From NCBI RefSeq assembly GCF_029589435.1, contig NZ_JARRAG010000002.1, positions 496,001 to 560,000 on the forward strand: a DNA stretch of 64,000 nt, given 5' to 3'. The first letter of the stretch is position 1, and the number at the start of each line of letters is the position of its first letter. This document shows, one piece after another, positions 5,957 to 63,895 of the stretch. The notes under the pieces were generated by a model. The model ran no database searches. It had not been told where the DNA came from and saw nothing but the letters and a program-made list of their open reading frames with translations. Origin of the DNA: Paludisphaera mucosa (GTDB taxonomy: Bacteria > Planctomycetota > Planctomycetia > Isosphaerales > Isosphaeraceae). The translations under genes were made by a program, and so were the position numbers.

Positions 5957-6505
5957 ATGAAGGCTTCACGCGGTCGAGGCTTCATCGTGGGCTCGGTCGC
6001 TCTCCTGGCCGCCTGCGTCCTCGCAACTGTATGCTTCATGAGGTCTGGCCGCAGGCCGCTGCACCCTTCCGCCCGCCCCCTGCCCCTCTCCGCCAGCCCC
6101 TTCCTCCGCGATGTGGTCGAGCCGATCGCGATCGTCCAAGCCCTGCCGTTCAGCGACGGCGGCAGCGTCGGCGTGCAGTACCGCGACGCCCGGGGCGTCG
6201 AACGGAGCTTCTGCCTGGTCTCCTTCGCCCTCGACTTCGACGATCCCCCGCGGCCGTCCGAAGTCGCATTCGGCTCGGTGTTCCCCTCGCGCGTCACGAC
6301 GCCGGTCGGGTCGGACGACGAACGCGCCCTGCTCGGGCTACTGGAGAGGTGGGCGGCGGCCGATCCCGAGGGGCGAGAACTGGACCGCCAATCGCATCGG
6401 ATTTCGCGCCGCGAGATCTCCTACGGCGACCTGTCCGCCGACGCCGGCTTCAAGCTCGTCGTCAGGTCGATCCTGCGGAAACTCCGAGCCCGAAACGAAA
6501 AATGA
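5957..6505 (+). CDS. Membrane-anchored hypothetical protein, tandem paralogue B
   Basis: A 182-residue paralogue of the upstream gene with the same order of conserved blocks (PLPLSASPFLRDVVEPI, then DDERALLGLLERWAA). The N-terminal hydrophobic segment (9-28) contains LLAAC at 16-20, which fits a lipobox, but the hydrophobic stretch continues past the Cys, so a plain membrane anchor is equally likely. The function is unknown. It is convergent with the NUDIX gene, with a large imperfect hairpin between them. Confidence 0.75.
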   Translation: MKASRGRGFIVGSVALLAACVLATVCFMRSGRRPLHPSARPLPLSASPFLRDVVEPIAIVQALPFSDGGSVGVQYRDARGVERSFCLVSFALDFDDPPRPSEVAFGSVFPSRVTTPVGSDDERALLGLLERWAAADPEGRELDRQSHRISRREISYGDLSADAGFKLVVRSILRKLRARNEK

Positions 6506-6565
6506 GGCTGCCCGGATGCGGCCCTGTCAACCGGCTTGGTTCGTCCGGTTTCCTTGCGTTTCCCC

Positions 6566-6616
6566 CGCGTTTTCGGCCCTCGGCTTCGGCCTGCGAAGGG
6601 CCAAACAACGCGAAAA
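6566..6616. terminator. Imperfect hairpin between convergent genes (possible bidirectional terminator)
   Basis: CGCGTTTTCGGCCCT pairs imperfectly with AAGGGCCAAACAACGCG around a loop of about 15 nt. The outer arms carry a T run on one side and AAAA on the other. Its place between the converging paralogue B and NUDIX genes fits termination in both directions. Confidence 0.45.
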
Positions 6617-6634
6617 TCCCACCAATTCCGAAAG

Positions 6635-7051
6635 CTACGGCGATCCGGATTCGGCGACGAGCTGGGCGAGGATGGCGTCGTTCGCCTCGGGGAAGCGGTA
6701 GCCGGCCAGGCCTTTCGCGGGGACCCAGATGCAGGCGTGTTCGGGGGCGGGCTCGGCGACGGGGTCGGCGGGCGTGCAGTCGAAGAAGTGGAGTCGGACG
6801 CGGCCGTGGGGGTAGGCGTGCTCGACGACGCTCCGCAGGCGGGTCGCGACGACGGCCAGGCCGGTCTCTTCGAGGCATTCGCGGACGGTGGCCTGCTCCG
6901 GGGTCTCGCCCGGCTCGACCTTGCCGCCGGGGAACTCCCAGTAGCCGGCGTAGACCGTCCCCGGGGGGCGGCGGCGGATCAGGAAGCGATCGCCCCGGCG
7001 GATGACGCCGATCCCCCCCAGGATGAGGGCGTCCCCGCCGTCGGCGGCCAT
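6635..7051 (-). CDS. NUDIX hydrolase, MutT type
   Basis: A 138-residue protein, the normal length for MutT-like nucleoside triphosphate pyrophosphohydrolases. The Nudix box spans residues 43-65 and matches GX5EX7REUXEEXGU, with Glu58, Glu61 and Glu62 as metal ligands. A WEFPGGK strand precedes it, as in MutT. Such enzymes hydrolyse oxidised or non-canonical nucleotides; the exact substrate cannot be read from sequence. Its ATG follows the fabI stop codon after a single base, so translation is probably coupled to fabI. Confidence 0.9.
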   Translation of the reverse strand: MAADGGDALILGGIGVIRRGDRFLIRRRPPGTVYAGYWEFPGGKVEPGETPEQATVRECLEETGLAVVATRLRSVVEHAYPHGRVRLHFFDCTPADPVAEPAPEHACIWVPAKGLAGYRFPEANDAILAQLVAESGSP

Positions 7052-7052
7052 G

Positions 7053-7853
7053 TCAGACCTTGCCCTTGGCGAGGGCGCGGCCGGGCGAGCCCATGACGTT
7101 GTAGCCGCAGTCGACGTGGAGGATCTCGCCGGTGATGCCGCTGGACAGGTCGGAGAGCATGAACATGCCCGCCGCGCCGACTTCCTCTCGGGTGATGTTC
7201 CGCTGCATCGGGGCGACGGCGTCGTAGAGGCCCGACAGGTCGTCGAAGTCGCCCACGGCCGAGGCGGCGAGGGTCTTCACCGGGCCGGCGGAGACGGCGT
7301 TGACCCGGATGTTCTTGGGGCCGAGGTCGTAGGCCAGGTACTTCACCGAGGCGTCGAGCGCGGCCTTGCAGACGCCCATCATGTTGTAGCCGGGGACCAC
7401 CTTCTCGCCGCCGTAGTAGGTCAGCGTCAGGATCGATCCGCCGTCGGGCATGACCTTCGAGGCGTAGCGGGAGACGGCGGCCAGGCTGTAGGCGCTGATC
7501 TCCATGGCCGTCTTGAAGCCCTCGCGGCTGGCGTCGACGAACGCGCACTTGATGTCGTCGAGCGGGGCGAAGGCGATCGAGTGCAGGACGAAGTCGAGCT
7601 TGCCGTAGGTCTCGCCGGCCTGCTCGAAGACGCGGGCGATGTCCTCGTCCTTCTGGACGTCGCACGAGGCGATCAGCTTGGCGCCGATCGGCTCGGCGAG
7701 CTTCCGCACCCGCCGCTCCATCTTGTCGCCGGGCAGGTGCGTGAAGCCGACCTCCGCGCCCTCGTCGAGGAGCTTGCGCGTGACGGCCCAGGCGATGCTG
7801 AAATCGTTGGCGACTCCCAGCACCACGCCCTTCTTCCCGGTGAACAATCCCAT
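7053..7853 (-). CDS. fabI: Enoyl-[acyl-carrier-protein] reductase (NADH), FabI
   Basis: A 266-residue SDR enzyme for the last reduction in each fatty-acid elongation cycle. The FabI active site is present at the same numbers as in the E. coli enzyme: Tyr146, Tyr156 and Lys163 in the Y-X6-K pattern (YNMMGVCK). The N-terminal nucleotide-binding loop has [10 protein letters not shown]. The frame stays open 31 codons further upstream, but the ATG at 7853 is preceded by AGGGAG and gives the standard FabI N-terminus (MGLFTGKKG). Cotranscribed with the NUDIX gene. Confidence 0.95.
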
Positions 7854-12971: not shown

Positions 12972-13686
12972 ACCCCGGTCGATCGACGTGAACGCCGACC
13001 TCGGCGAGGGCTTCCCCCACGACGCCGCGCTCCTGGAACGGGTGACCTCCGCGAGCATCTCGTGCGGCGCCCACGCCGGCGATCCGGAATCGATCCGTTG
13101 CACCTTGCGCGAGGCCCTCGCCCGCGGCGTCGTCGTCGGGGCCCACCCCGGCTATCCCGATCGCGAGGGCTTCGGCCGCCGCGACAGGGACCTCGACGCC
13201 CAAATGGTCGAACGCCTGATCTGCGATCAGGTCGCCGACCTGCGGCGGCTCGCCGACGAGGCCGGCGTCGAGATCCGCTTCCTCAAGCCCCACGGGGCCC
13301 TGTACAACCAGGCCCAGAGCCGGGAGGCGACCGCGCGGGGCGTCGTCGCGGCGGCCGTCGCCCTGGGCCTGCCGCTGCTCGGCCAGCCGGGGACGCTCCC
13401 GGAAACGCTCGCGCGGTCGGCGGGCGTCGTTTACATCCCCGAGGGCTTCCCCGACCGCCGCTACCGCGCCGACGGCTCCCTGACGCCCCGCGCCGAGCCC
13501 GGGGCCGTCCTCGAAAGTCCGGACGAGCTGGCCGCGAACGTCCGGCGGCTAGCCGCGGGCGGCCTCGTGCAGACGCTCTGCATCCACGGCGACGAGGCCG
13601 AAGCCCTCGCCAACGCGTCGCGGCTCCGCGCGATCCTGGACGACCTGGGGATCGCGGTCCGGCCGTTCGTGCCGGGGCGATCGTGA
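12952..13686 (+). CDS. pxpA: 5-oxoprolinase subunit A (LamB/YcsF family)
   Basis: A 244-residue LamB/YcsF protein with the hallmark segments DVNADLGEGFP at the N-terminus, SISCGAHAGDP, GAHPGYPDREGFGRR and KPHGALYN, all at the expected order and spacing. It is the catalytic subunit for pyroglutamate ring opening together with PxpB and PxpC. The stop overlaps the GTG start of pxpC (GTGA). The length is typical for the family. Confidence 0.95.
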   Translation: MNASNAEPRSIDVNADLGEGFPHDAALLERVTSASISCGAHAGDPESIRCTLREALARGVVVGAHPGYPDREGFGRRDRDLDAQMVERLICDQVADLRRLADEAGVEIRFLKPHGALYNQAQSREATARGVVAAAVALGLPLLGQPGTLPETLARSAGVVYIPEGFPDRRYRADGSLTPRAEPGAVLESPDELAANVRRLAAGGLVQTLCIHGDEAEALANASRLRAILDDLGIAVRPFVPGRS

Positions 13687-14621
13687 GCACCGGACGCATG
13701 GGCCTGCTCGCGGTCGACCCAGGATTCTTCACGACGGTGCAGGACCTGGGCCGGCCCGGCGCGCGAGAATTCGGGGTGCCGCTGGGCGGGGCCTGCGATC
13801 GCGAGTCGCTGGCGGTCGCGAACGCGCTGGCGGGGAATTCCGCCGACTGCGCCGCGCTGGAGCTGACGCTCCGCGGCGGCCTGTTCGAGGCCCGGTGCGA
13901 CCTGGGGATCGCCCTGGCGGGGGCGGCGATGGCGGCGACGATCGTCGGCGAGGACGGCCGGCGTTCGATCGCGGTGCCGTCGAGCGCCTGGCTGCGCGAG
14001 GGCGGGCGGATCGAGCTGGGCCGCGCCGGTCGCGGCGCGCGGACGTACCTGGCGACGCCCGGCGGCTTTCAGACGGACTCCTGGCTCGGCAGCCGTTCGG
14101 CCGAGCGTCCCGTCCGCGCGGGGGACGTGCTGCCCGCCGGGCCGAGCCGCCTGGCCGCTCGCAGGCCGGCGGACGTCGGCGCGGCCGAGGCCGTCGCGGA
14201 GCTGCGCGTCCTCCCCGGCCCGGACTGGGCGCTGCTGGACGACCCCGACGCCTGGATGCACGCGTCGTTTCGGATCGGCGTGCAGAGCAATCGCATGGGG
14301 ATGCGGCTGGAGGGGGGGCCCGTCGCGGTCGTCCCGACGCCGGAACGGCTCTCCGCGGCCGTGACGCCGGGGGCGATCCAGGCGGCCGGAGGGCGGCTGA
14401 TCGTGCTGGGCGTCGCCTGCGGCACGATGGGGGGCTATCCCCATGTCGCGCAAGTGGTTTCGGCCGATCTCGACCGCCTGGGGAGGCTCCGGCCGGGCGA
14501 CGCGGTCGGGTTCCGGGCCGTGTCGCTGGCGGACGCGCGCCGGCTCGATCGGGAGGCGCGTGAGGCCCTGCACGCCCGGACCTTGCGGATCGCCGCGGCG
14601 GCCCGCGACGGGCCGAGTTGA
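13683..14621 (+). CDS. pxpC: 5-oxoprolinase subunit C (KipA family)
   Basis: A 312-residue biotin-dependent-carboxylase-like KipA protein. The N-terminal signature TVQDLGRPGAREFGVPLGGACD and the C-terminal GGYPHVAQVVSADLDRLG segment are both clear. I chose the GTG that overlaps the pxpA stop because a four-base overlap is the usual coupling pattern; an ATG five codons later (13698) is the alternative. The B-A-C order and the overlaps mark a single operon, and no pyroglutamate transporter is adjacent. Confidence 0.93.
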   Translation: MSTGRMGLLAVDPGFFTTVQDLGRPGAREFGVPLGGACDRESLAVANALAGNSADCAALELTLRGGLFEARCDLGIALAGAAMAATIVGEDGRRSIAVPSSAWLREGGRIELGRAGRGARTYLATPGGFQTDSWLGSRSAERPVRAGDVLPAGPSRLAARRPADVGAAEAVAELRVLPGPDWALLDDPDAWMHASFRIGVQSNRMGMRLEGGPVAVVPTPERLSAAVTPGAIQAAGGRLIVLGVACGTMGGYPHVAQVVSADLDRLGRLRPGDAVGFRAVSLADARRLDREAREALHARTLRIAAAARDGPS

Positions 14622-14700
14622 GCTTGCCCGAGGGGGCCGATTGGGGTACACCACGGCCTCTCCACGTCGCCTTTTGGGTGTCCCAGGCAGGGGTCGTTCG

Positions 14701-15762
14701 ATGTCGCATGCTCGCCGAGGCCGGCGCGTCCTGGCGGTGATGGCCTGCACGGCCGTCGCGGCCGCGGGTGCAGGCTGCCACTCGCCGTTCCACCGCCCCA
14801 CCGACGTCCCGCACGCGGCCTCGCCCACGCCCTCGGCCCCGGCGGCGCCCGTCGCCAGCGTCGAACGCGCGGCGGTCCCCGAGCTGGCCCCGGGCGTCGC
14901 CGCGACGACCCCGCCGCTCCCCTCGCGATCGCTCCCGAACACCCCGACGCCCCCGGCCTACGCCCCGGTCGAGGCCGTCGCGACGACCGCGGTCGAGCCG
15001 GCCCCCACGCCGCTCCTCGACGCCGCCCTGCGTCGGGCCGAGGCCTCCGAGGAGGCCGAACGCCGGGCCGTCGAGATCGCCACGGCCCCCCCGCCCAAGC
15101 CGCCGCGCGAGCCCGAACCGGAAGCGCCCAAGATCCCGTTCCCCCCGGCCGCCGAGGCCGAGCCGGCGCCCGCCGAGGCCGCCCCCGAAACGCCGAAGCC
15201 GCCGGCCGAGGCGCCCAGGGAGGCGCCGAAGTCCGACCCGGCCGTCGAGACCGCCTCGGCCGAGGCGGCCGACGCGGCCGACGCCACCCCGCCGCAGCCG
15301 ACGCTCCCGTCGGAACTCGCGGCCGGGCCGATCGCGGAGGCCGACGAGCCCGAGGCTCCCGAGGAGCCGGCGCTGACGATCGACGCGGTGCGGCTCTGCC
15401 GCAAGATCCACGGCTTCGGCTCGTTCGAGCCGCTCGACGCCCAGGCCCTCAGGCCCGGCCGCTCGGCCCTGGTCTACTGCGAGCTGGGCGGGCTGGAATA
15501 CCGGGCCGACGGCGACGAGTTCGTCTCCCACGTCGCGACCCGGGTGGAGCTGGTCCGGGCGGGCGGGGACGACAAGGTTTGGGAAGTGGCGGGCGAGGCC
15601 GAGGACCGCTGCCGGACCCGGCGCCGCGATTCCTACGTCGGCACCCTCGTCACGCTGCCCGAGACCCTCGCCCCGGGCGCGTACACCCTCCGCCTCTATC
15701 AGGCCGACGCGACCTCCGGGCGGACCGCCGCCGCCGAGATCCCCGTCACGATCGCCCGCTGA
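14701..15762 (+). CDS. Proline/alanine/glutamate-rich lipoprotein
   Basis: A 353-residue protein. A basic N-terminus and hydrophobic stretch end in AAGAGC, so Cys26 is a likely lipidation site. Residues 30-225 are low-complexity Pro/Ala/Glu and should be an extended linker. The globular part is the last 125 residues or so, with regular beta-strand spacing and TLRLYQADATSGRTAA near the end. I do not recognise this domain. It probably projects from a membrane on a long stalk. It begins 79 nt after pxpC but is not functionally related to it in any visible way. Confidence 0.75.
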   Translation: MSHARRGRRVLAVMACTAVAAAGAGCHSPFHRPTDVPHAASPTPSAPAAPVASVERAAVPELAPGVAATTPPLPSRSLPNTPTPPAYAPVEAVATTAVEPAPTPLLDAALRRAEASEEAERRAVEIATAPPPKPPREPEPEAPKIPFPPAAEAEPAPAEAAPETPKPPAEAPREAPKSDPAVETASAEAADAADATPPQPTLPSELAAGPIAEADEPEAPEEPALTIDAVRLCRKIHGFGSFEPLDAQALRPGRSALVYCELGGLEYRADGDEFVSHVATRVELVRAGGDDKVWEVAGEAEDRCRTRRRDSYVGTLVTLPETLAPGAYTLRLYQADATSGRTAAAEIPVTIAR

Positions 15763-51726: not shown

Positions 51727-53776
51727 CTGACCATCACGGCCGACAGCACGAGCAAGACCTACGGCGACGGGATGGACTTCAACGGGGATGAGTTCGCGAC
51801 AAGCAGCCTGGTCGAAGGCGACAGTGTGGATTGGGTGCACCTGACCAGCGACGGCGCGGCGCCGACGTCCCCGGTCGCCGGCTCGCCCTACGACATCGTG
51901 GCCGACGATGCGTTCGGCTCCGGACTGGTCAACTACGACATCACGTACGTCGACGGCAAGCTGACCGTGAAGCAGGCCGAGCTGATGATCACGGCCGGCA
52001 GCACGACCAAGATCTACGGCCAGACGGTGAACTTCACCGGGACCGAGTTCTCGACCGACGGCCTGTTTCAAGGCGATGGCGTGAGCAGTGTGACGCTCGC
52101 CAGCGACGGTGCGGCGGCGACGGCCCAGGTCGGCGGCTCGCCCTACGCCATCGCGGCCAGCAATGCGCAGGGGAACGGCCTGGGCAACTACCACATCTCC
52201 TACACCGACGGCTCGCTGGCCGTGGACCAGAAGCTGCTCACCATCACGGCCGAAAGCACCAGCAAGGCCTACGGCCAGGCGGTGATCTTCGCCGGGACCG
52301 AGTTCTCGACCGACGGACTGGTCAACGGCGACTCCGCGGGGCTGGTGAGTCTGGCCAGCGACGGCGCGGGCGCGACGGCGCAGGTCGACGGCTCGCCCTA
52401 CGACATCGTGGCCTCCGCCGCGACAGGCGCCAGGATGGCCAACTACGACATCATGTACGTCGACGGCCAACTCACCATCGGCCAGGCCACGCTGACCATC
52501 ACGGCCGACGACGCGAGCAAGACCTACGGAACCTGGGTGAACTTCGCCGAGAACGGGTTCACGTCCACAGGCCTGATCAACGGCGACACCGTGGACCGCG
52601 TGCACATGATCAGCGACGGCCAGCCGGAGTACGCGCAGGTCTCCGGCTCGCCCTACCACATCGAGGTCGTCGACTTGGCGGGGTCCGGCCTGAGGAACTA
52701 CATTATCTCCTACGTCGATGGCCTGCTGACCGTGAACAAGGCCGACCTGACGATCAAGGCCAACGACGCGAGCAAGATCTACGGCCAGGAGGCGAACTTC
52801 GACGAGTCCGGGTTCTCGACCGACGGACTGGTCAACGGCGACGATGTGTTCAGCGTGGCCTTGAACAGCGCCGGTGCGGCGGCGACGGCCAAGGTCGTCG
52901 GCTCGCCTTACGCCATCGTGGCCAGCGCCGCGGATGGGTTCGGGCTGGACAACTACAACATCTCCTACGCCGGCGGCGAGCTGACCGTGTCCAAGGCCGA
53001 TCTGATGATCACGGCCGCCAGCACGACCAAGACCTACGGCCAGACCGTGACCTTCGCCGGGACCGAGTTCGCGACCAGCAGCCTGGTTGAAGGCGACAGC
53101 GTGAGCGGCGTGACGCTCGTCAGCGACGGTGCGGCGGCGACGGCCCAGGTCGGCAACTCGCCCTACGCCATCGGGGCCAGCGCCGCGGTGGGAAGCGGCC
53201 TGGAAAACTACAACATCTCCTTCACCACCGGCTCGCTGAACATCAACAAGGCTGTGCTGAACGTCAGGGCCAACGACGCGAGCAAGACCTACGGCGACGC
53301 GGTGATCTTCGCCGGGACCGAGTTCACGGCCAGCGGCCTGGTGAACAGCGACCACGTGACCCGCGTGGCCTTGTCTAGCATCGGTGCCGCGGCGAGCGTC
53401 CACGTCGGCACCAAGCCTTACGTCATCGTGGCCGACGCTGCGGAAGGCGCCGGCCTGGACAACTACGACATCAGGTACGGCGGCGGCGAGCTGATCGTCA
53501 ACAAGGCCAGGCTGATCATCACGGCCAACAACACGACCATGATCCTCGGGGGGCCGGTCCCGACCCTGTCGGCCTACTACACCGGCTTCGTGAACGGTGA
53601 TAATAGGTCGAACCTTGGCAGTCTGAACACGCTCACCTTGACCCCCGGCAACACGTCGGTCGTGGGCAACACCGCCATCACGACGAACGGCGGCGTAACG
53701 TCGTCCGATTACACGATCGTCTACGACCCCGGCACGCTGACCGTCACCCCCTTCAAGCCGATCGTCATCGGCCTCC
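51727..53776 (+). repeat. Tandem array of eight MBG-type repeats, exact 255-bp period
   Basis: The repeat-opening codon of each unit (L-T-I-T-A-type strand) falls at 51727, 51982, 52237, 52492, 52747, 53002, 53257 and 53512, exactly 255 bp (85 residues) apart each time. Each unit opens with (L/M)-x-I-x-A, then S-K-x-Y-G, and closes with NY-x-I-x-Y-x-x-G-x-L-x-V. Unit 8 is divergent (MILGGPVPTLSAYYTGF). No unit has gained or lost a codon, unusual for an old array. Confidence 0.9.
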
Positions 53777-53796
53777 CGCCGTCGAAGAAGAAGTGA
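51772..53796 (+). CDS. C-terminal MBG-repeat part of the frame-disrupted surface protein
   Basis: 674 residues from the first Met; the frame itself is open from 51646. It is built almost wholly of MBG-type beta repeats of 85 residues. The Met falls inside repeat 1 and has no ribosome-binding site, so independent translation is unlikely and the true start is that of the preceding fragment. The C-terminus is basic (PPSKKK), with no cell-wall anchor or DUF4214. MBG domains occur in large bacterial adhesin-like or surface proteins; the ligand is unknown. Confidence 0.75.
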   Translation: MDFNGDEFATSSLVEGDSVDWVHLTSDGAAPTSPVAGSPYDIVADDAFGSGLVNYDITYVDGKLTVKQAELMITAGSTTKIYGQTVNFTGTEFSTDGLFQGDGVSSVTLASDGAAATAQVGGSPYAIAASNAQGNGLGNYHISYTDGSLAVDQKLLTITAESTSKAYGQAVIFAGTEFSTDGLVNGDSAGLVSLASDGAGATAQVDGSPYDIVASAATGARMANYDIMYVDGQLTIGQATLTITADDASKTYGTWVNFAENGFTSTGLINGDTVDRVHMISDGQPEYAQVSGSPYHIEVVDLAGSGLRNYIISYVDGLLTVNKADLTIKANDASKIYGQEANFDESGFSTDGLVNGDDVFSVALNSAGAAATAKVVGSPYAIVASAADGFGLDNYNISYAGGELTVSKADLMITAASTTKTYGQTVTFAGTEFATSSLVEGDSVSGVTLVSDGAAATAQVGNSPYAIGASAAVGSGLENYNISFTTGSLNINKAVLNVRANDASKTYGDAVIFAGTEFTASGLVNSDHVTRVALSSIGAAASVHVGTKPYVIVADAAEGAGLDNYDIRYGGGELIVNKARLIITANNTTMILGGPVPTLSAYYTGFVNGDNRSNLGSLNTLTLTPGNTSVVGNTAITTNGGVTSSDYTIVYDPGTLTVTPFKPIVIGLPPSKKK

Positions 53797-58234: not shown

Positions 58235-61200
58235 TCAGGCCCGCCCGGCCACGCGCGGCGGCTGGAGTTCGAGGCCCACCCGGACCAGCGGCCGGCGCCA
58301 GACCGGGACGTGGGCGGCCAGGCGTCGGCCCACGCGACGGCAGGCCCGCATCGCCAGGGCCCGGTCGACCGGATCGACGAGCGAGGATCGGCCCAGCTCG
58401 CGGAGCCGTCTGAGGCCGGACCCCGCGGCGATGACGCGAGCGCCGGGATCGGCCCGCTCGACTTCGAGGAGGATCGTCGCCAGGCCGTGGACATACGCGT
58501 GCAGGCCGTTGAAATCGGGAGCCCCCGGGACGGCGAGCCAGGCGGCCGCGGCGGCCGCATCGCCCTCGCAGAGCGCGTCCAGCGCCAGCCAGGCGGCGTG
58601 CCAGGGGCGTCGGCCGTCTTCGGGCAGGTCCATCGCGGCGCGATCGATGCGGTTGGCCTGGACGTCGCGTCCGAGCGACCGCTGGGCGAGCGCCAGGGCG
58701 ACGAGCATCCAGGGCTTGACGCCCTGGCGGTTGGTCCAATCCTCCAGCCAGCGCACCACGGCGCGGGGCCGCGAGGCCCGCCCCAGCGCGTAGCCGACCA
58801 TGCCCCAGCAGTCGGCATGGGCGCGGAGCGCGGCGCGATGCCTCCACACCGTGAGCCGGAGCAAAGCCCCGGAACGGGCTTCGCCCAGGACCTTGACGTG
58901 GGCCTCCAGGGCCCGGCGGGCCGCCTCGCCCCCGGTGGGGAGGAGCCGGCGCAGCGTGCGGCCGACGCGCCAGGCCCGCAGGGCCCCGCGCCGGGACGCC
59001 CACATCTCGCCCACGTTCGGGGCGGCGCCGGGCCGGGCGAGGGCGGCCTGGAAAGCCCGGTCGGCCGCCCGCCTCCAGCCGGCGGCGACGAGCGCCGCGT
59101 CGGCCGCCCGCCAGGGCCATTCCGAGCCGGGGTCGGCCGCGACGCAGAGCCTCTCCAGGGCTTCGATCGCGGCGGGCCGGTCCTTGCGGGCTGCATGGAG
59201 CTGGACCTCGCGGGCGACGACGTAGGCCGGGTATTCGTACTCGGGCGCCATCAGGGGCCGGAGCGCCTCCTCGGCGGCGTCGAGACGGCCGTCGGCCAGC
59301 TCCAGGGTGAAGAGGTTCAGGGCCGCGAAGTCGTACGCGGGGTCGATCGCCAGGGCGCGGCGGAATCCCTCCTTGGCCCCGGCGCGGTCGCCGTTCCGGA
59401 GCCGGGCCTCGCCGAGCGCGCCGAGGCTGTAAGGATCGCCCGAGTCGAGCCGCGCGAGCTGCTCGGCAGCCTCCAGGTAGGCCGGCGCGTCGCCGTCCTC
59501 GCGGGCCCATTCGGCCAGTCGACGCCAGCCCCAGGCGTAGTCGGGCTCCTCCTCGACGATCGGCCGCATCCGGGCCCGGGCCCCGGCGCGGTCGCCCCGG
59601 CGGGCGGCGACCCAGGCGGCCCGTCCCCGCAGGTTCGACGGCGGCCGGTCGCCCCAACCCGGCGGTGCGCAGGCGGCCTCGGCCTCGTCGAAGCGGCCCG
59701 CCTCGGCCAGGATCTCGGCCCTGCGGTCGTGCACCACGTCGTCGCGGGGCGCCAGCGCGGCCGCCCGATCGAGGGCGGCGAGACGTTCGTCGAGCGTCTC
59801 GGGACGGTCTTCGAGGGCTCCCTCCAACGCCTTCCAGGCCCGCGCGTCGCCGGCGCGGGCCGCGACGACCTCGCGGGCGAGCGCGACCGCCGCGTCGGGC
59901 GAGCCGACCTCCTTCGACCACGCGGCGAAGGCGCGCCAGGCCCACGCGTAGCCGGGGTCGAGCCGCAGCGCGACGGCGATCCGATCCCGCGCCGCGTCCT
60001 TCTCGCCCAGGCTCCAGAGCGCGTCGGCGAGATAGCCGTTGACCTGGGCGTCCAGCGGCGCCGAGGCGACGGCCCGTTCCAGCACGCCGCGCGACTCTTC
60101 GAACAGCTTCTCCCCCTCCAGCGACTGCGCCAGCTGGCAGGCGGCCCGGCCCCATCCCGGGCTGATCTGCAGGGCCCGCCGAAGCGCGGCGCGCTCGCCC
60201 TCGACGTCGCCCCGGACGCGGAGGACGGCGGAGAGGTCGAGGTGGATCCGGGGGAGGAGCGGGAACCGCTCGGCGGCCCGTCGCGCCAGGCCCTCGGCCT
60301 CGTCCAGCTCGCCGCGGCCGACGCGCTCGTCGATCAGGGCGGACCAGGCGTGCCAGAGGTCGGGACGCGCCTCCCACGCGGCGACGAGCGTGGCGAGCAG
60401 GCCGTCCGATCCGAGATGCCCCCGCGCGTATCGGGCGAAGACGAGCAGGCCGTCGCCGAAGATGACCTGGCGCTCCAGCTCGGCGGCGACGAAGGCGATC
60501 GCGTCGAGGCGGTCGGCCTGGGAGTCGCAGATCGCGATCAGGCGAGCGACGGCGTCCTCGTTGTCGACGTCGCGGCGGACCGCCTCGCGGTAGGCCGCGC
60601 GGGCCTCGGCGGGCCGGCCGGCGTCCTCGTGGATCCGGCCGCGGATCCCGGCCTCGTACGTCGAGTCGGGTTCGAGGGCCGCGGCGACCGCCATCTCCGC
60701 CGCCGCCTGGTCATGGCGGCCGGTCCGGCTCAACAACATCGCCATCTCGCGACGCCCCCAGGCGGATGCCGGGTGGATCTCCAGCAGTCGGCGGAGGGCC
60801 GGCTCGGCCACCTCCGGGCCCTCGCCCCGCGCCTGCTCGACGAGCGCCTGATGCAGCGCGTAGTTGTGCGGCGACCGGCCGCAGGCGGACTCCAGGTGGG
60901 CGTAGGATGCGGCGCGGCCCTCGGTCTCGGCGAGCAGCCCGGCCGCCGCCCTGTTGGCGTCGAGGGCCGCCGGCTCGGCGCGGAGCACGTCTCGCCAGAG
61001 GGCCAGCGAGCCGGGGAGGTCGCCGCGCGCCGAGGCCAGCGCCGCCGCGGCGCGGAGCCAGTCGCCCCGGCGGCAATGAGGGCGGGCCGCCTCGACCCGG
61101 GCCGAGGCGCGCTCGAACTCGCCGGCCGCCGCGTCGGCCTCGGCGGCGTACAGCAGCAGCTCGCCGTCGTCGGGGCGGAACCTCAGCGCCTCGTCGAGCA

Positions 61201-63274
61201 CGGCCTGGGCCTCGGCGGACCGGTCCAGCATCGCCAGCGCGGCGTGCAGGGTCCGCGCCGGCGCCGACGACCGCGCGCCGTAGCGGCGGGAGCGGTCGTG
61301 CAGCAGGGCCAGCGGCTCCTCCTGGCGGCGCAGCATTCGGGCCGCGCCGAAGTAGGCCCGCGCCAGCCATTCGTCCTTGTCGCTCAGGCACGAGGCGAAC
61401 CGGTGCAGCTCCAGGGCCTCGTCGCGGCGGCCCGCGTTCCAGGCGAGCCGGGCCAGGATGGAGATCGAGGCCGCGTCGGTCGGCCGGGCCCGCATCGCCC
61501 GGGCGACCATCCGCCCCGCGGCCTCCTGATCGCGGGCGTCGGCCAGCAGCTCCTCGGCGAACTGGCGGAACAGGATCGGGTCGGCCGTCGGCGCGGCGCA
61601 GGCCTCGCGGTAGAGGGCCAGGCGGTCGTCGCGCCGGCCCAGTTCGCGCAGGCAGGAGAGGTGGAAGAGCCGCAGGTTCACGTCGTCGGGGAACTGCGCG
61701 CGCATCGCCGCCACCACTTCCAGGTTGGTCGGCCCGTCGGCGTCGTAGAGGGCGAGGTGGCGGCGGGCCTGGTGCGTGAGCCGGTGGTCCGGCGCCTCGG
61801 CGCGCATCGCCGCCAGCTCGGCCGCGGCCGCATCGCGGTCGTGCCCCCGCAGGGCGACCTGGATGCGGTGCAGGCGGTCGAACAGCCCCGCGTCGGGGAG
61901 GTCGACGCCGTCGAGCAGCTCGGCGCGTGCGGAGGGGACCATGGCCATGCCCCGCGGGCCGACGGATCGGTACCGTTCGAGGAACGGCCCGGCCAGGGCC
62001 TCGCCCTCGTGCGGAAGGGTCGGGTCGCGGATCAGGAGCGTCGCGCGGCGGGCGTCGTAGCCGATGACCGCCTGGAGGTGCGCGCTCTGGGGCTCGACGG
62101 TCGTCAGGGTGAACGGCACGCCCCGGTCGAGCAGCGCGACGGCCGCGTCCCAGGTCACGGTGAACTCGCGCGCCCGCCAGCCGTTCGCCCCGGCCCACGA
62201 CCGCTCGCGATGGTCGGGCGTGCCGTCATAGCAGATCGCCTCGGCGACCTCCAGGTGGTCGGCCTCGCGGCCCCAGAACCGGGCCAGCGCCGCCAGGGTC
62301 GCCGGCGCGCAGGTCTGGTGGTGCTGGCGGACGAACCGGACGCCCAGCCGGACGCGGCGGTCGTCCTCGGCGGCCTGCATTCGGTCGGCGACCTCCCGGA
62401 AGAAGCCCTCGCCGGCCTCCCGCGCGTACGTCACGGCCGCCGCCACGTCCCCAAGGCGGTAGGCCGCGTCCGAGCGGCGGGCCGCCAGCCAGCGACGGGT
62501 CGTCGCGTCCATCATCGGCGAGAGCGCCTCGTAGCGGTCGAGGCTCGCCATCGACTCCGCGTGGAGCCCGGCCTCGAACTGGAAGCCCGCGAGCTGCCCG
62601 ACGATCACGCCCGAATTCATGCGACGGTCGGCCTCGGCCAGGAACTCCAGGGCTTCGGCCTCGCGGTCGAGCAGTTGCAGCAGGTGGGCCGTCGACTGCA
62701 CGGCCGGCCGATACCAGGTCGAGAGCGCCAGGGCCTCGCGGGCGGCGGCCAGGGCCTCCTCGTAACGGTCCTCCATCTCCAGTAGGCTCGCCCGCTCGAC
62801 CCGGAGCCAGGCGCGGCCGGGCGTGATCCGCTCGGCCTCGGCCAGCCGGAGTTCGGCGCGTTCGAAGTCGCGGAGCCCGCCGAGGGCCATGGCGTGCGTG
62901 GCCTCCCAGTCGGCGCGGATCTCGTCCGGGGCGGCGTCCAGCGGCCCGACGCGACCCAGGAACCGCCAGGCCGCCAGCGGGCCGCGGCGGCCCAGCATCG
63001 CCCGCGCCCGGTAGTAGAGAGCCTCGGGGTCGCGGGGGTCGTCCCGCCAGGCGCGCAGGGGGAGCGCCAGCCCCAGGCGGACCGCCCCGAGCTGCCAGGC
63101 CAGGCGTCCGGCGAGCACCTTCGCCGACGCGCCCGGCCACCGCGTCATCGGGCCCAGGCCCCGGGCGACCTCGAAGGCGCCCAGGTAGTCGCCGGCCTCG
63201 TATAGCTCGCGGATCCGCCCCAGATCGGCCGGGGCCGCCGCGACGGCCCCGTGTCCCTCGATCGTCGCCGACAT
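58235..63274 (-). CDS. Giant TPR protein with an embedded C39-type cysteine peptidase domain
   Basis: A 1679-residue protein with no signal peptide or membrane segment. TPR-like helical repeats fill residues 20-300 and 470-1600. Between them, about 308-450 form a C39/papain-like domain: Gln317, Cys322 (HHQTCAPATLAALARFWG), His399 (SAHLQAVIGYDA) and Asp417 (LLIRDPTLP), the full oxyanion Gln plus Cys-His-Asp set at proper spacing. C39 domains usually trim double-glycine leaders on ABC exporters; a soluble TPR-flanked form suggests a scaffold-recruited protease or a non-proteolytic binding module. A small membrane protein gene lies 141 nt upstream on the same strand and may be cotranscribed. Confidence 0.88.
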   Translation of the reverse strand: MSATIEGHGAVAAAPADLGRIRELYEAGDYLGAFEVARGLGPMTRWPGASAKVLAGRLAWQLGAVRLGLALPLRAWRDDPRDPEALYYRARAMLGRRGPLAAWRFLGRVGPLDAAPDEIRADWEATHAMALGGLRDFERAELRLAEAERITPGRAWLRVERASLLEMEDRYEEALAAAREALALSTWYRPAVQSTAHLLQLLDREAEALEFLAEADRRMNSGVIVGQLAGFQFEAGLHAESMASLDRYEALSPMMDATTRRWLAARRSDAAYRLGDVAAAVTYAREAGEGFFREVADRMQAAEDDRRVRLGVRFVRQHHQTCAPATLAALARFWGREADHLEVAEAICYDGTPDHRERSWAGANGWRAREFTVTWDAAVALLDRGVPFTLTTVEPQSAHLQAVIGYDARRATLLIRDPTLPHEGEALAGPFLERYRSVGPRGMAMVPSARAELLDGVDLPDAGLFDRLHRIQVALRGHDRDAAAAELAAMRAEAPDHRLTHQARRHLALYDADGPTNLEVVAAMRAQFPDDVNLRLFHLSCLRELGRRDDRLALYREACAAPTADPILFRQFAEELLADARDQEAAGRMVARAMRARPTDAASISILARLAWNAGRRDEALELHRFASCLSDKDEWLARAYFGAARMLRRQEEPLALLHDRSRRYGARSSAPARTLHAALAMLDRSAEAQAVLDEALRFRPDDGELLLYAAEADAAAGEFERASARVEAARPHCRRGDWLRAAAALASARGDLPGSLALWRDVLRAEPAALDANRAAAGLLAETEGRAASYAHLESACGRSPHNYALHQALVEQARGEGPEVAEPALRRLLEIHPASAWGRREMAMLLSRTGRHDQAAAEMAVAAALEPDSTYEAGIRGRIHEDAGRPAEARAAYREAVRRDVDNEDAVARLIAICDSQADRLDAIAFVAAELERQVIFGDGLLVFARYARGHLGSDGLLATLVAAWEARPDLWHAWSALIDERVGRGELDEAEGLARRAAERFPLLPRIHLDLSAVLRVRGDVEGERAALRRALQISPGWGRAACQLAQSLEGEKLFEESRGVLERAVASAPLDAQVNGYLADALWSLGEKDAARDRIAVALRLDPGYAWAWRAFAAWSKEVGSPDAAVALAREVVAARAGDARAWKALEGALEDRPETLDERLAALDRAAALAPRDDVVHDRRAEILAEAGRFDEAEAACAPPGWGDRPPSNLRGRAAWVAARRGDRAGARARMRPIVEEEPDYAWGWRRLAEWAREDGDAPAYLEAAEQLARLDSGDPYSLGALGEARLRNGDRAGAKEGFRRALAIDPAYDFAALNLFTLELADGRLDAAEEALRPLMAPEYEYPAYVVAREVQLHAARKDRPAAIEALERLCVAADPGSEWPWRAADAALVAAGWRRAADRAFQAALARPGAAPNVGEMWASRRGALRAWRVGRTLRRLLPTGGEAARRALEAHVKVLGEARSGALLRLTVWRHRAALRAHADCWGMVGYALGRASRPRAVVRWLEDWTNRQGVKPWMLVALALAQRSLGRDVQANRIDRAAMDLPEDGRRPWHAAWLALDALCEGDAAAAAAWLAVPGAPDFNGLHAYVHGLATILLEVERADPGARVIAAGSGLRRLRELGRSSLVDPVDRALAMRACRRVGRRLAAHVPVWRRPLVRVGLELQPPRVAGRA

Positions 63275-63415
63275 CGTCCCCTTCCCCCCGCCCCGGCCAG
63301 CCGCGCGGGCGTCCGTCGCCCCGAAGCATGACTATACGCCGGACACGCGAGCGTGCGACCGGGTTCTCGGGATTCGTCGGGGTTCGATTCAGGAGGGCCG
63401 GTGCGGGCGGGGCGC

Positions 63416-63895
63416 TCAGGCCAGGCCGAGCTCGGGCTTCTCGGTTTCGAGCCGGCCGAGCAGCAGGTGCGTGTACCGCTCGAGCGAGGGCTCCTTGACG
63501 CAGGAGACGATCTTCCACATCTTGAAATCGGCCATGCTGATGTAGTTTCCCGCCGATCGGCTCATGATGACCAGCTCGGCGATCTCGATCGCGCCGTTTT
63601 GCGAGATGCCGTTGCTCTGGAGGGTGTGGATCAAGGCCGAGCGGTTGTTCCGCTGCATCTCCGCCCGCTGCTTGTCGTGGTAGTCCTTGACCGCCTGGGC
63701 ACCGATGATCACCGGGGGCGCCAGGAACGTGGCCGCCCCGATCCCCATCGCCAGGCCCACGGCCCTGGGCCGGCTCGTACCGCGGTTCGTCGCCTCGTCG
63801 TAGCACCCCTTGACGGTGTTGTTCTTGAGCTGGAACTGGGCGATCTTCTTGTAGTTCTTGAAGCCCTGGGCGAGGGAATTCAGCATGCTCGGCAT
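63416..63895 (-). CDS. Small one-TM membrane protein upstream of the TPR-C39 gene
   Basis: A 159-residue protein. A basic amphipathic N-terminus (FKNYKKIAQFQLKNNTVKG), one membrane segment at about 45-68, a charged helical stretch (KDYHDKQRAEMQRNN) and a C-terminal helical domain. I do not recognise the family. GGGAGG eight bases before the ATG at 63895 supports the start; the frame is open further upstream as filler. Its position suggests a membrane partner for the TPR-C39 protein, but this is inference from order alone. The last 105 bases of the window hold nothing I can assign. Confidence 0.7.
   Translation of the reverse strand: MPSMLNSLAQGFKNYKKIAQFQLKNNTVKGCYDEATNRGTSRPRAVGLAMGIGAATFLAPPVIIGAQAVKDYHDKQRAEMQRNNRSALIHTLQSNGISQNGAIEIAELVIMSRSAGNYISMADFKMWKIVSCVKEPSLERYTHLLLGRLETEKPELGLA

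Follow-up and report, generated by a model that had tools for sequence, protein, structure and literature searches.

A gene in the window, as we call the whole 64,000-nucleotide stretch of Paludisphaera mucosa DNA analysed here, most plausibly encodes a stand-alone cytosolic C39-type cysteine peptidase built into a giant TPR scaffold (P0001), a reading to which we assign a probability of roughly 0.55. C39 peptidases are known as the leader-cutting end of peptide exporters. The preference for a peptidase over a transferase draws on family resemblance, and the protein is possibly membrane-tethered.

Layout of the giant protein

The length and position that the sequence-only reading had assigned to the protein (1,679 residues; 58235-63274, minus strand) are borne out by the open reading frame (ORF), whose features are listed in Table 1. 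An HMM search, suggested earlier as a check on the middle domain, matched Peptidase_C39_2 (PF13529) on residues 311-418 (Pfam; E 4.3e-10, 40.7 bits against a cut-off of 24), and the scaffold scored 46.4 bits with PF13529 in a scan of its own genome. The same genome holds one PF03412 domain and two further PF13529 domains (sites G000:C2:2597008-2597391, which is L001, G000:C7:9338-9700, and G000:C4:111530-111967).

Table 1. Features of the scaffold gene and of the small ORF upstream of it, in window coordinates
Feature	Residues	Position	Strand	Basis or remark
Giant TPR-C39-TPR protein (P0001)	1679 aa, stop included	58235..63274	minus	full-length relatives exist
N-terminal helical/TPR-like arm	about 14-300	62375..63235	minus	TPR above cut-off in L049, L053
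C39-like peptidase domain	about 306-448	61931..62359	minus	PF13529 match, fold model, conservation
Gln317 codon, candidate oxyanion-hole residue	317	62324..62326	minus	Q in 51/51 rows outside f3
Cys322 codon, candidate nucleophile	322	62309..62311	minus	C in 51/51 outside f3, 0/5 in f3
His399 codon, candidate catalytic base	399	62078..62080	minus	H in 50/50 readable outside f3 (one truncated), 0/5 in f3
Asp417 codon, third residue	417	62024..62026	minus	D 47, E 3 of 50 readable outside f3; D 5/5 in f3
Long C-terminal TPR array	about 470-1400	59075..61867	minus	Pfam/NCBIfam scans, arm identities
Basic C-terminal tail, one Trp here; proposed membrane-contact tail	last 30	58238..58327	minus	family composition
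Small ORF (P0002), one hydrophobic stretch; not part of the system	159 aa	63416..63895	minus	relatives comparison

TPR arrays had been proposed on both sides of the peptidase domain. The C-terminal array is clear, with a TPR_19 match at E 3.4e-18 and the best TPR stretches of the protein in the Pfam scan. On the N-terminal side, residues 1-300 of P0001 gave TPR models below threshold (best E 0.0073), and the claim stands through relatives, whose N-terminal arms pass the TPR cut-offs (TPR_8 at 41.6 bits in L049 and TPR_19 at 32.6 bits in L053); we therefore take the arm of P0001 to be a diverged TPR arm. The two planctomycete families are on average 45% identical in this arm. The earlier statements that the protein lacks an ABC transporter and a signal peptide agree with the scans, since Pfam gave no ABC transporter match in P0001 and a Kyte-Doolittle scan found neither a transmembrane stretch nor a hydrophobic stretch at the N-terminus. 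PADLOC returned no family at E ≤ 0.01 for P0001, for the small upstream ORF, or for two neighbours from other loci.

Members of the scaffold family are mostly 1,600-2,000 residues long and share a common layout. Across 15 intact proteins, conservation is highest in the C39 domain (mean 0.75 versus 0.53 elsewhere), and within the f1 family its mean identity is 84%, against 65% and 62% for the flanking arms. Elsewhere in the window, a long ORF on the plus strand (51772-53796) consists, by eye, of repeated units and is preceded by a shorter, similar ORF.

Predicted fold of the C39-like domain

An AlphaFold2 model of residues 285-470, built from a 16-sequence alignment, reached a mean pLDDT of 85.7 and a pTM of 0.83. 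At E ≤ 0.001, Foldseek matched this model to 28 PDB chains, and the ten top-ranked were all PCAT1 or ComA. In VIA-align 2, where rows no more than 1 apart count as tied, the top row was PeiR, an endoisopeptidase (Z 16.2), followed by LahT (6mpz_A; Z 15.4, rmsd 2.4, 132 aligned), staphopain and ComA (15.2), PCAT1 (15.1), and 3erv, a putative C39-like peptidase (Z 14.8, rmsd 2.4, 144 residues). The model thus supports a papain-like fold with C39 nearest by Foldseek, while VIA, with its scores nearly tied, separates C39 from no other papain-like enzyme. The C39-like peptidase with a papain-like fold that had been proposed from the letters of the DNA is in line with the predicted model and with its matches to PCAT1, ComA, and LahT. 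Without structure, a sequence-only search found no PDB chain below E 0.04, the best being an unrelated glutathione transferase (E 0.041); the domain profile compared with ComA gave E 0.18, and the family Cys, His, and Asp aligned with the CGP, H, and DP of ComA, which we count as supporting only.

The first alternative to be weighed is that the domain, papain-like in fold, acts as an acyl- or amide-transferase (compare phytochelatin synthase, BtrH, and CtaG), with the TPR scaffold presenting a peptide or carrier for modification. Such enzymes use the same fold and triad, chains of the phytochelatin synthase Alr0975 and of CtaG are also among the Foldseek and VIA matches, and no peptide substrate gene was found nearby. 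However, C39 peptidases outrank transferases in Foldseek, the Pfam match is to Peptidase_C39_2, and no biosynthetic neighbour gene occupies a constant place, so that we consider a transferase unlikely.

Conservation of the active-site residues

The positions proposed earlier for Gln317, Cys322, His399, and Asp417 are correct and lie in conserved columns of the family, as counted in an alignment of 56 proteins (51 outside the planctomycete family f3 and 5 from f3, with L046 left out as a duplicate of L034; Table 1). Judged from this alignment, Gln, Cys, and His are invariant and an Asp or Glu is kept in every readable member outside f3, across several phyla. The expectation that Cys, His, and Asp would be conserved in orthologues thus holds for all readable members outside f3, with the third residue D or E, and fails for f3, where Cys and His are gone in all five readable copies and the Asp is kept in all five. 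Among seven loci from the phylum of the Opitutia locus, one of which is the seed again, Cys and His were present in 7/7, the third residue was D in five and E in two, and the Gln was present in six and unreadable in one. The active site is also intact in L052, from a Gemmataceae metagenome-assembled genome (MAG). A divergent planctomycete branch (L079 and L082-L087) has an altered active-site setting (TCxPAS, HDP) in which the catalytic residues are kept.

In its above-cut-off match, its papain-like fold, and the order of Cys, His, and Asp, the scaffold resembles Peptidase_C39_2, and the predicted model of P0001 shows the traits of PF13529 membership, with Cys, His, and Asp set in a papain-like fold. 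The corresponding residues of the exporter peptidase LahT are described as Gln21 (role debated), Cys27, His101, and Asp117 (PMC6363468); by comparison with that description, the spacing in the scaffold is 5 rather than 6 residues from Gln to Cys and 18 rather than 16 from His to Asp.

A planctomycete lineage without the active site

The f3 domain still aligns with the rest of the family (hhalign probability 100%, E 7e-41) after the loss of Cys and His, and from its residues it is a pseudo-peptidase; the scaffold can therefore persist without catalysis. The five readable f3 domains sit in ORFs of 1,973-2,056 codons that share homology with the scaffold throughout and are not part of an ABC exporter. 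A model built from these 5 sequences (pLDDT 69.6, which is moderate; pTM 0.60) had two PDB matches at E ≤ 0.001, namely, the PCAT1 peptidase domain and then the C39-like domain (CLD) of HlyB (3zua, E 8.5e-4). In this moderate-confidence model, the f3 domain has what defines a CLD, a C39 fold without the catalytic Cys. The HlyB domain likewise lacks the catalytic Cys, but it sits in an ABC exporter whereas the f3 domain sits in a TPR scaffold, and the two losses look separate (the tree covers the scaffold family only).

These observations bear on the possibility that the domain serves the scaffold chiefly as a peptide binder, that catalysis is incidental, and that f3 shows its real role. The persistence and best structural matches of the f3 domain speak for it, as does the HlyB C39-like domain, which is described as recruiting cargo without cleaving it (PMC6363468, PMC8277102). 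Two observations point the other way: (i) Gln, Cys, and His are invariant in all rows outside f3 that could be read (50-51), which binding alone would presumably not need, and (ii) f3 is nested among active members in the midpoint-rooted tree (support 1.00 for f3 and 0.91 for the node that unites it with active members; support is lower at deeper nodes). Because f3 branches among active members, the loss of its active site looks secondary, and we regard a module that mainly binds as quite unlikely for the family as a whole.

Distribution and gene tree

Profile searches with residues 14-478 (E ≤ 1e-20, seed genomes included) found the scaffold in 32 of 392 Planctomycetota genomes (a few of the matches being contig-edge fragments), 7 of 288 in Verrucomicrobiota (the phylum of the Opitutia locus), 4 of 398 in Pseudomonadota (to which the Pseudomonas locus belongs), 3 of 199 in Acidobacteriota, and 1 of 194 in Cyanobacteria (the phylum of the Pseudanabaena locus). 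In a search of 59 relatives, five of the 37 genomes from the family to which the window belongs carry the scaffold at full length (the window genome G000, G002, G004, G005, and G028), and all six f3 genomes carry long copies, one of which is truncated at the end of its contig; the remaining matches in these relatives reflect partial TPR similarity. No scaffold was found in G001 and G003, which belong to the same genus as the window. A pattern scan of named genomes yielded 13 loci, including those of Pseudomonas nitroreducens TX1, Burkholderia sp. WAC0059, and Pseudanabaena sp. FACHB-1998, as well as two Acidobacteria MAGs, one Opitutia MAG, and one Gemmataceae MAG. A full scaffold copy is also present in L051, a MAG labelled Bordetella parapertussis, although the label may be wrong.

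The gene tree (53 rows, midpoint-rooted, with several weak nodes; L054, L057, and L078 were excluded for short coverage) mixes phyla. This mixing, together with the patchy distribution, suits horizontal transfer of the scaffold gene. A tblastn search of plasmids and phages at E 1e-5 gave no scaffold match.

Gene neighbourhood

The small ORF with one hydrophobic stretch that the sequence-only reading placed next to the scaffold is real: it ends 141 nt upstream of the giant ORF, is co-directional with it, and has homologues that are 61-65% identical, and it matched nothing in Pfam or NCBIfam at E ≤ 1. The linkage that had been drawn between the two genes was not kept. The small gene occurs in 3 of the 59 relatives, all in the window's genus (the window genome, G002, and G003); in G002 the homologue lies ~2.06 Mb away from the scaffold, G003 has a homologue but no scaffold match, and conversely G004, G005, G028, and the six f3 genomes carry the scaffold without the small gene. 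A two-gene system of the scaffold and a small one-transmembrane protein, suggested by their adjacency in the window genome, is refuted by this distribution as a conserved system and highly improbable overall, and the adjacency may reflect a recent local link.

Neighbouring genes were clustered over 43 stretches, comprising 42 loci and the window's end, which L032 overlaps; the genes came from a home-made codon-usage caller, which mis-called the strand in L111. Ten clusters included at least three loci. Two are genus synteny (L032, L033, and L034), three are common to L038, L039, and L040 only, and four cross lineages (L032/L033/L034/L123; L032/L033/L048/L054; L032/L034/L108/window; and L038/L039/L054) with varying distance and strand. 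In the second of these four, L048 and L054 each carry the neighbour close to the scaffold, at 137 and 640 nt, respectively, but on the other strand. The sole same-strand adjacent cluster is a gene of 130-142 aa that precedes the scaffold in five f3 loci (L037-L041), which in the sixth f3 genome lies on a different contig from the scaffold. Its homologues are present, mostly as single copies, in 51 of the 59 relatives (e.g., G000:C2:2877028-2877381) and are not next to the scaffold in any of the five f1 carriers; we therefore rejected it as a dedicated partner. The L038 member, the one scanned, had no Pfam match. Across the 43 stretches, no same-strand adjacent neighbour family is shared between lineages.

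A Pfam scan of 30 neighbours gave a mixed, mostly housekeeping set, with 9 of the 30 lacking a match; the 20 close neighbours in other loci include SelA, phosphofructokinase, RsmI, RecJ, and glycogen synthase, and 5 had no Pfam match. One of the 30 (L053:6038-7801, plus strand) is probably a shadow ORF, since a later caller preferred the opposite strand. The scaffolds of two Acidobacteria MAGs are each preceded by a small co-directional gene, at a distance of 13 nt in one (L049:7478-7981) and 73 nt in the other (L050:7445-7951); the L049 gene has a Pfam match to DUF6016, which we take to be cupin-like. In Pseudanabaena (L058), the scaffold lies between a DUF1822/HisKA gene (6444-7772) and a CHAT-domain gene (13444-15252), all on the same strand. 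With no neighbour keeping its position from one lineage to the next, the scaffold gene behaves as a unit of its own. Small ORFs with a double-glycine motif were sought as well, with no strict match in the window and one unconvincing match in 33 neighbourhoods, a comparison of little power because shuffled controls also gave 0.

Composition of the C-terminal tail

A feature new here is that the last 30 residues of the family are rich in Trp and Arg and poor in acidic residues. Compared with 322 control tails from neighbour genes, 40 family tails have more Trp (6.8% versus 1.4%) and Lys/Arg (19% versus 13%), less Asp/Glu (3% versus 12%), and a higher net charge (+4.8 versus +0.3). At least one Trp is present in 39/40 family tails and 114/322 control tails (Fisher p 3e-15, ignoring relatedness). 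The 40 tails include 5 from f3 and two from members (L055 and L058) that have a strongly hydrophobic terminal segment in place of the Trp/Arg tail; the count excludes L111 (strand mis-called), L107 (cut off where its contig ends), and L032 (a copy of the window). An amphipathic helix was considered and rejected: the composition favours it, but the ordering is no better than in shuffled tails, with a mean shuffle p of 0.40 for 38 family tails (the 40 minus L055 and L058) and 0.42 for 120 control tails. We propose that the tail makes contact with a membrane; the shuffles, which show no helical order beyond what the composition gives, speak against this.

Comparison with known systems

The C39 domains of PCAT/AMS exporters (PCAT1, ComA, and LahT; PF03412) are the best solved-structure matches of the scaffold by Foldseek and are near the top in VIA. 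Unlike these exporters, the scaffold has no ABC transporter fusion or transmembrane region and no convincing local double-glycine substrate. A 2023 classification describes C39_2 as single-domain, transporter-associated peptidases (PMC10318531); this trait belongs to that description and is not a Pfam criterion, and the scaffold departs from it in that its domain is inside a giant TPR protein with no constant neighbour. PA2778 family cysteine peptidase (NF033920), a C39 peptidase by name, matched P0001 below threshold (37 bits against a cut-off of 150), with its best-scoring stretch on residues 764-869, in the TPR part and outside the peptidase domain. TPR-CHAT/Csx29, the type III-E CRISPR protease (PMC10028731), is likewise a bacterial cysteine protease joined to TPRs, but its protease is of the CHAT family and it has CRISPR partner genes, whereas the scaffold carries a papain-like domain and matched no PADLOC model. 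In narrow word searches of open-licence PMC papers, none of the matches listed described a protein of this kind, which is weak evidence of absence, and the excerpted text of PMC10318531, PMC11002830, PMC3720943, PMC4631099, and PMC10028731 does not describe one.

Proposed mechanism and meaning

In the stand-alone peptidase reading that we prefer, the TPR arms would hold a protein or peptide substrate, the C39 domain would cleave the substrate held in this way, and the C-terminal tail would tether the protein to the inner side of the membrane. In f3, by analogy with the C39-like domain of HlyB, the domain may have turned into a substrate-binding module that does not cleave. More broadly, and only tentatively, the family could represent a class of C39 peptidases, so far undescribed and spread horizontally, that work inside the cell while tethered to the membrane: a TPR superhelix would capture the substrate, the C39 domain would cut it, and a Trp/Arg tail would anchor the protein; one planctomycete family would then have converted its cutter into a CLD-like holder, independently repeating the C39-to-CLD change of toxin exporters.

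That several phyla share a conserved, exporter-free C39 domain carried by a giant TPR scaffold suggests an intracellular proteolytic (or acyl-transfer) role. The active members and the f3 pseudo-peptidase together form a natural experiment in which binding and cutting are separable and can be tested.
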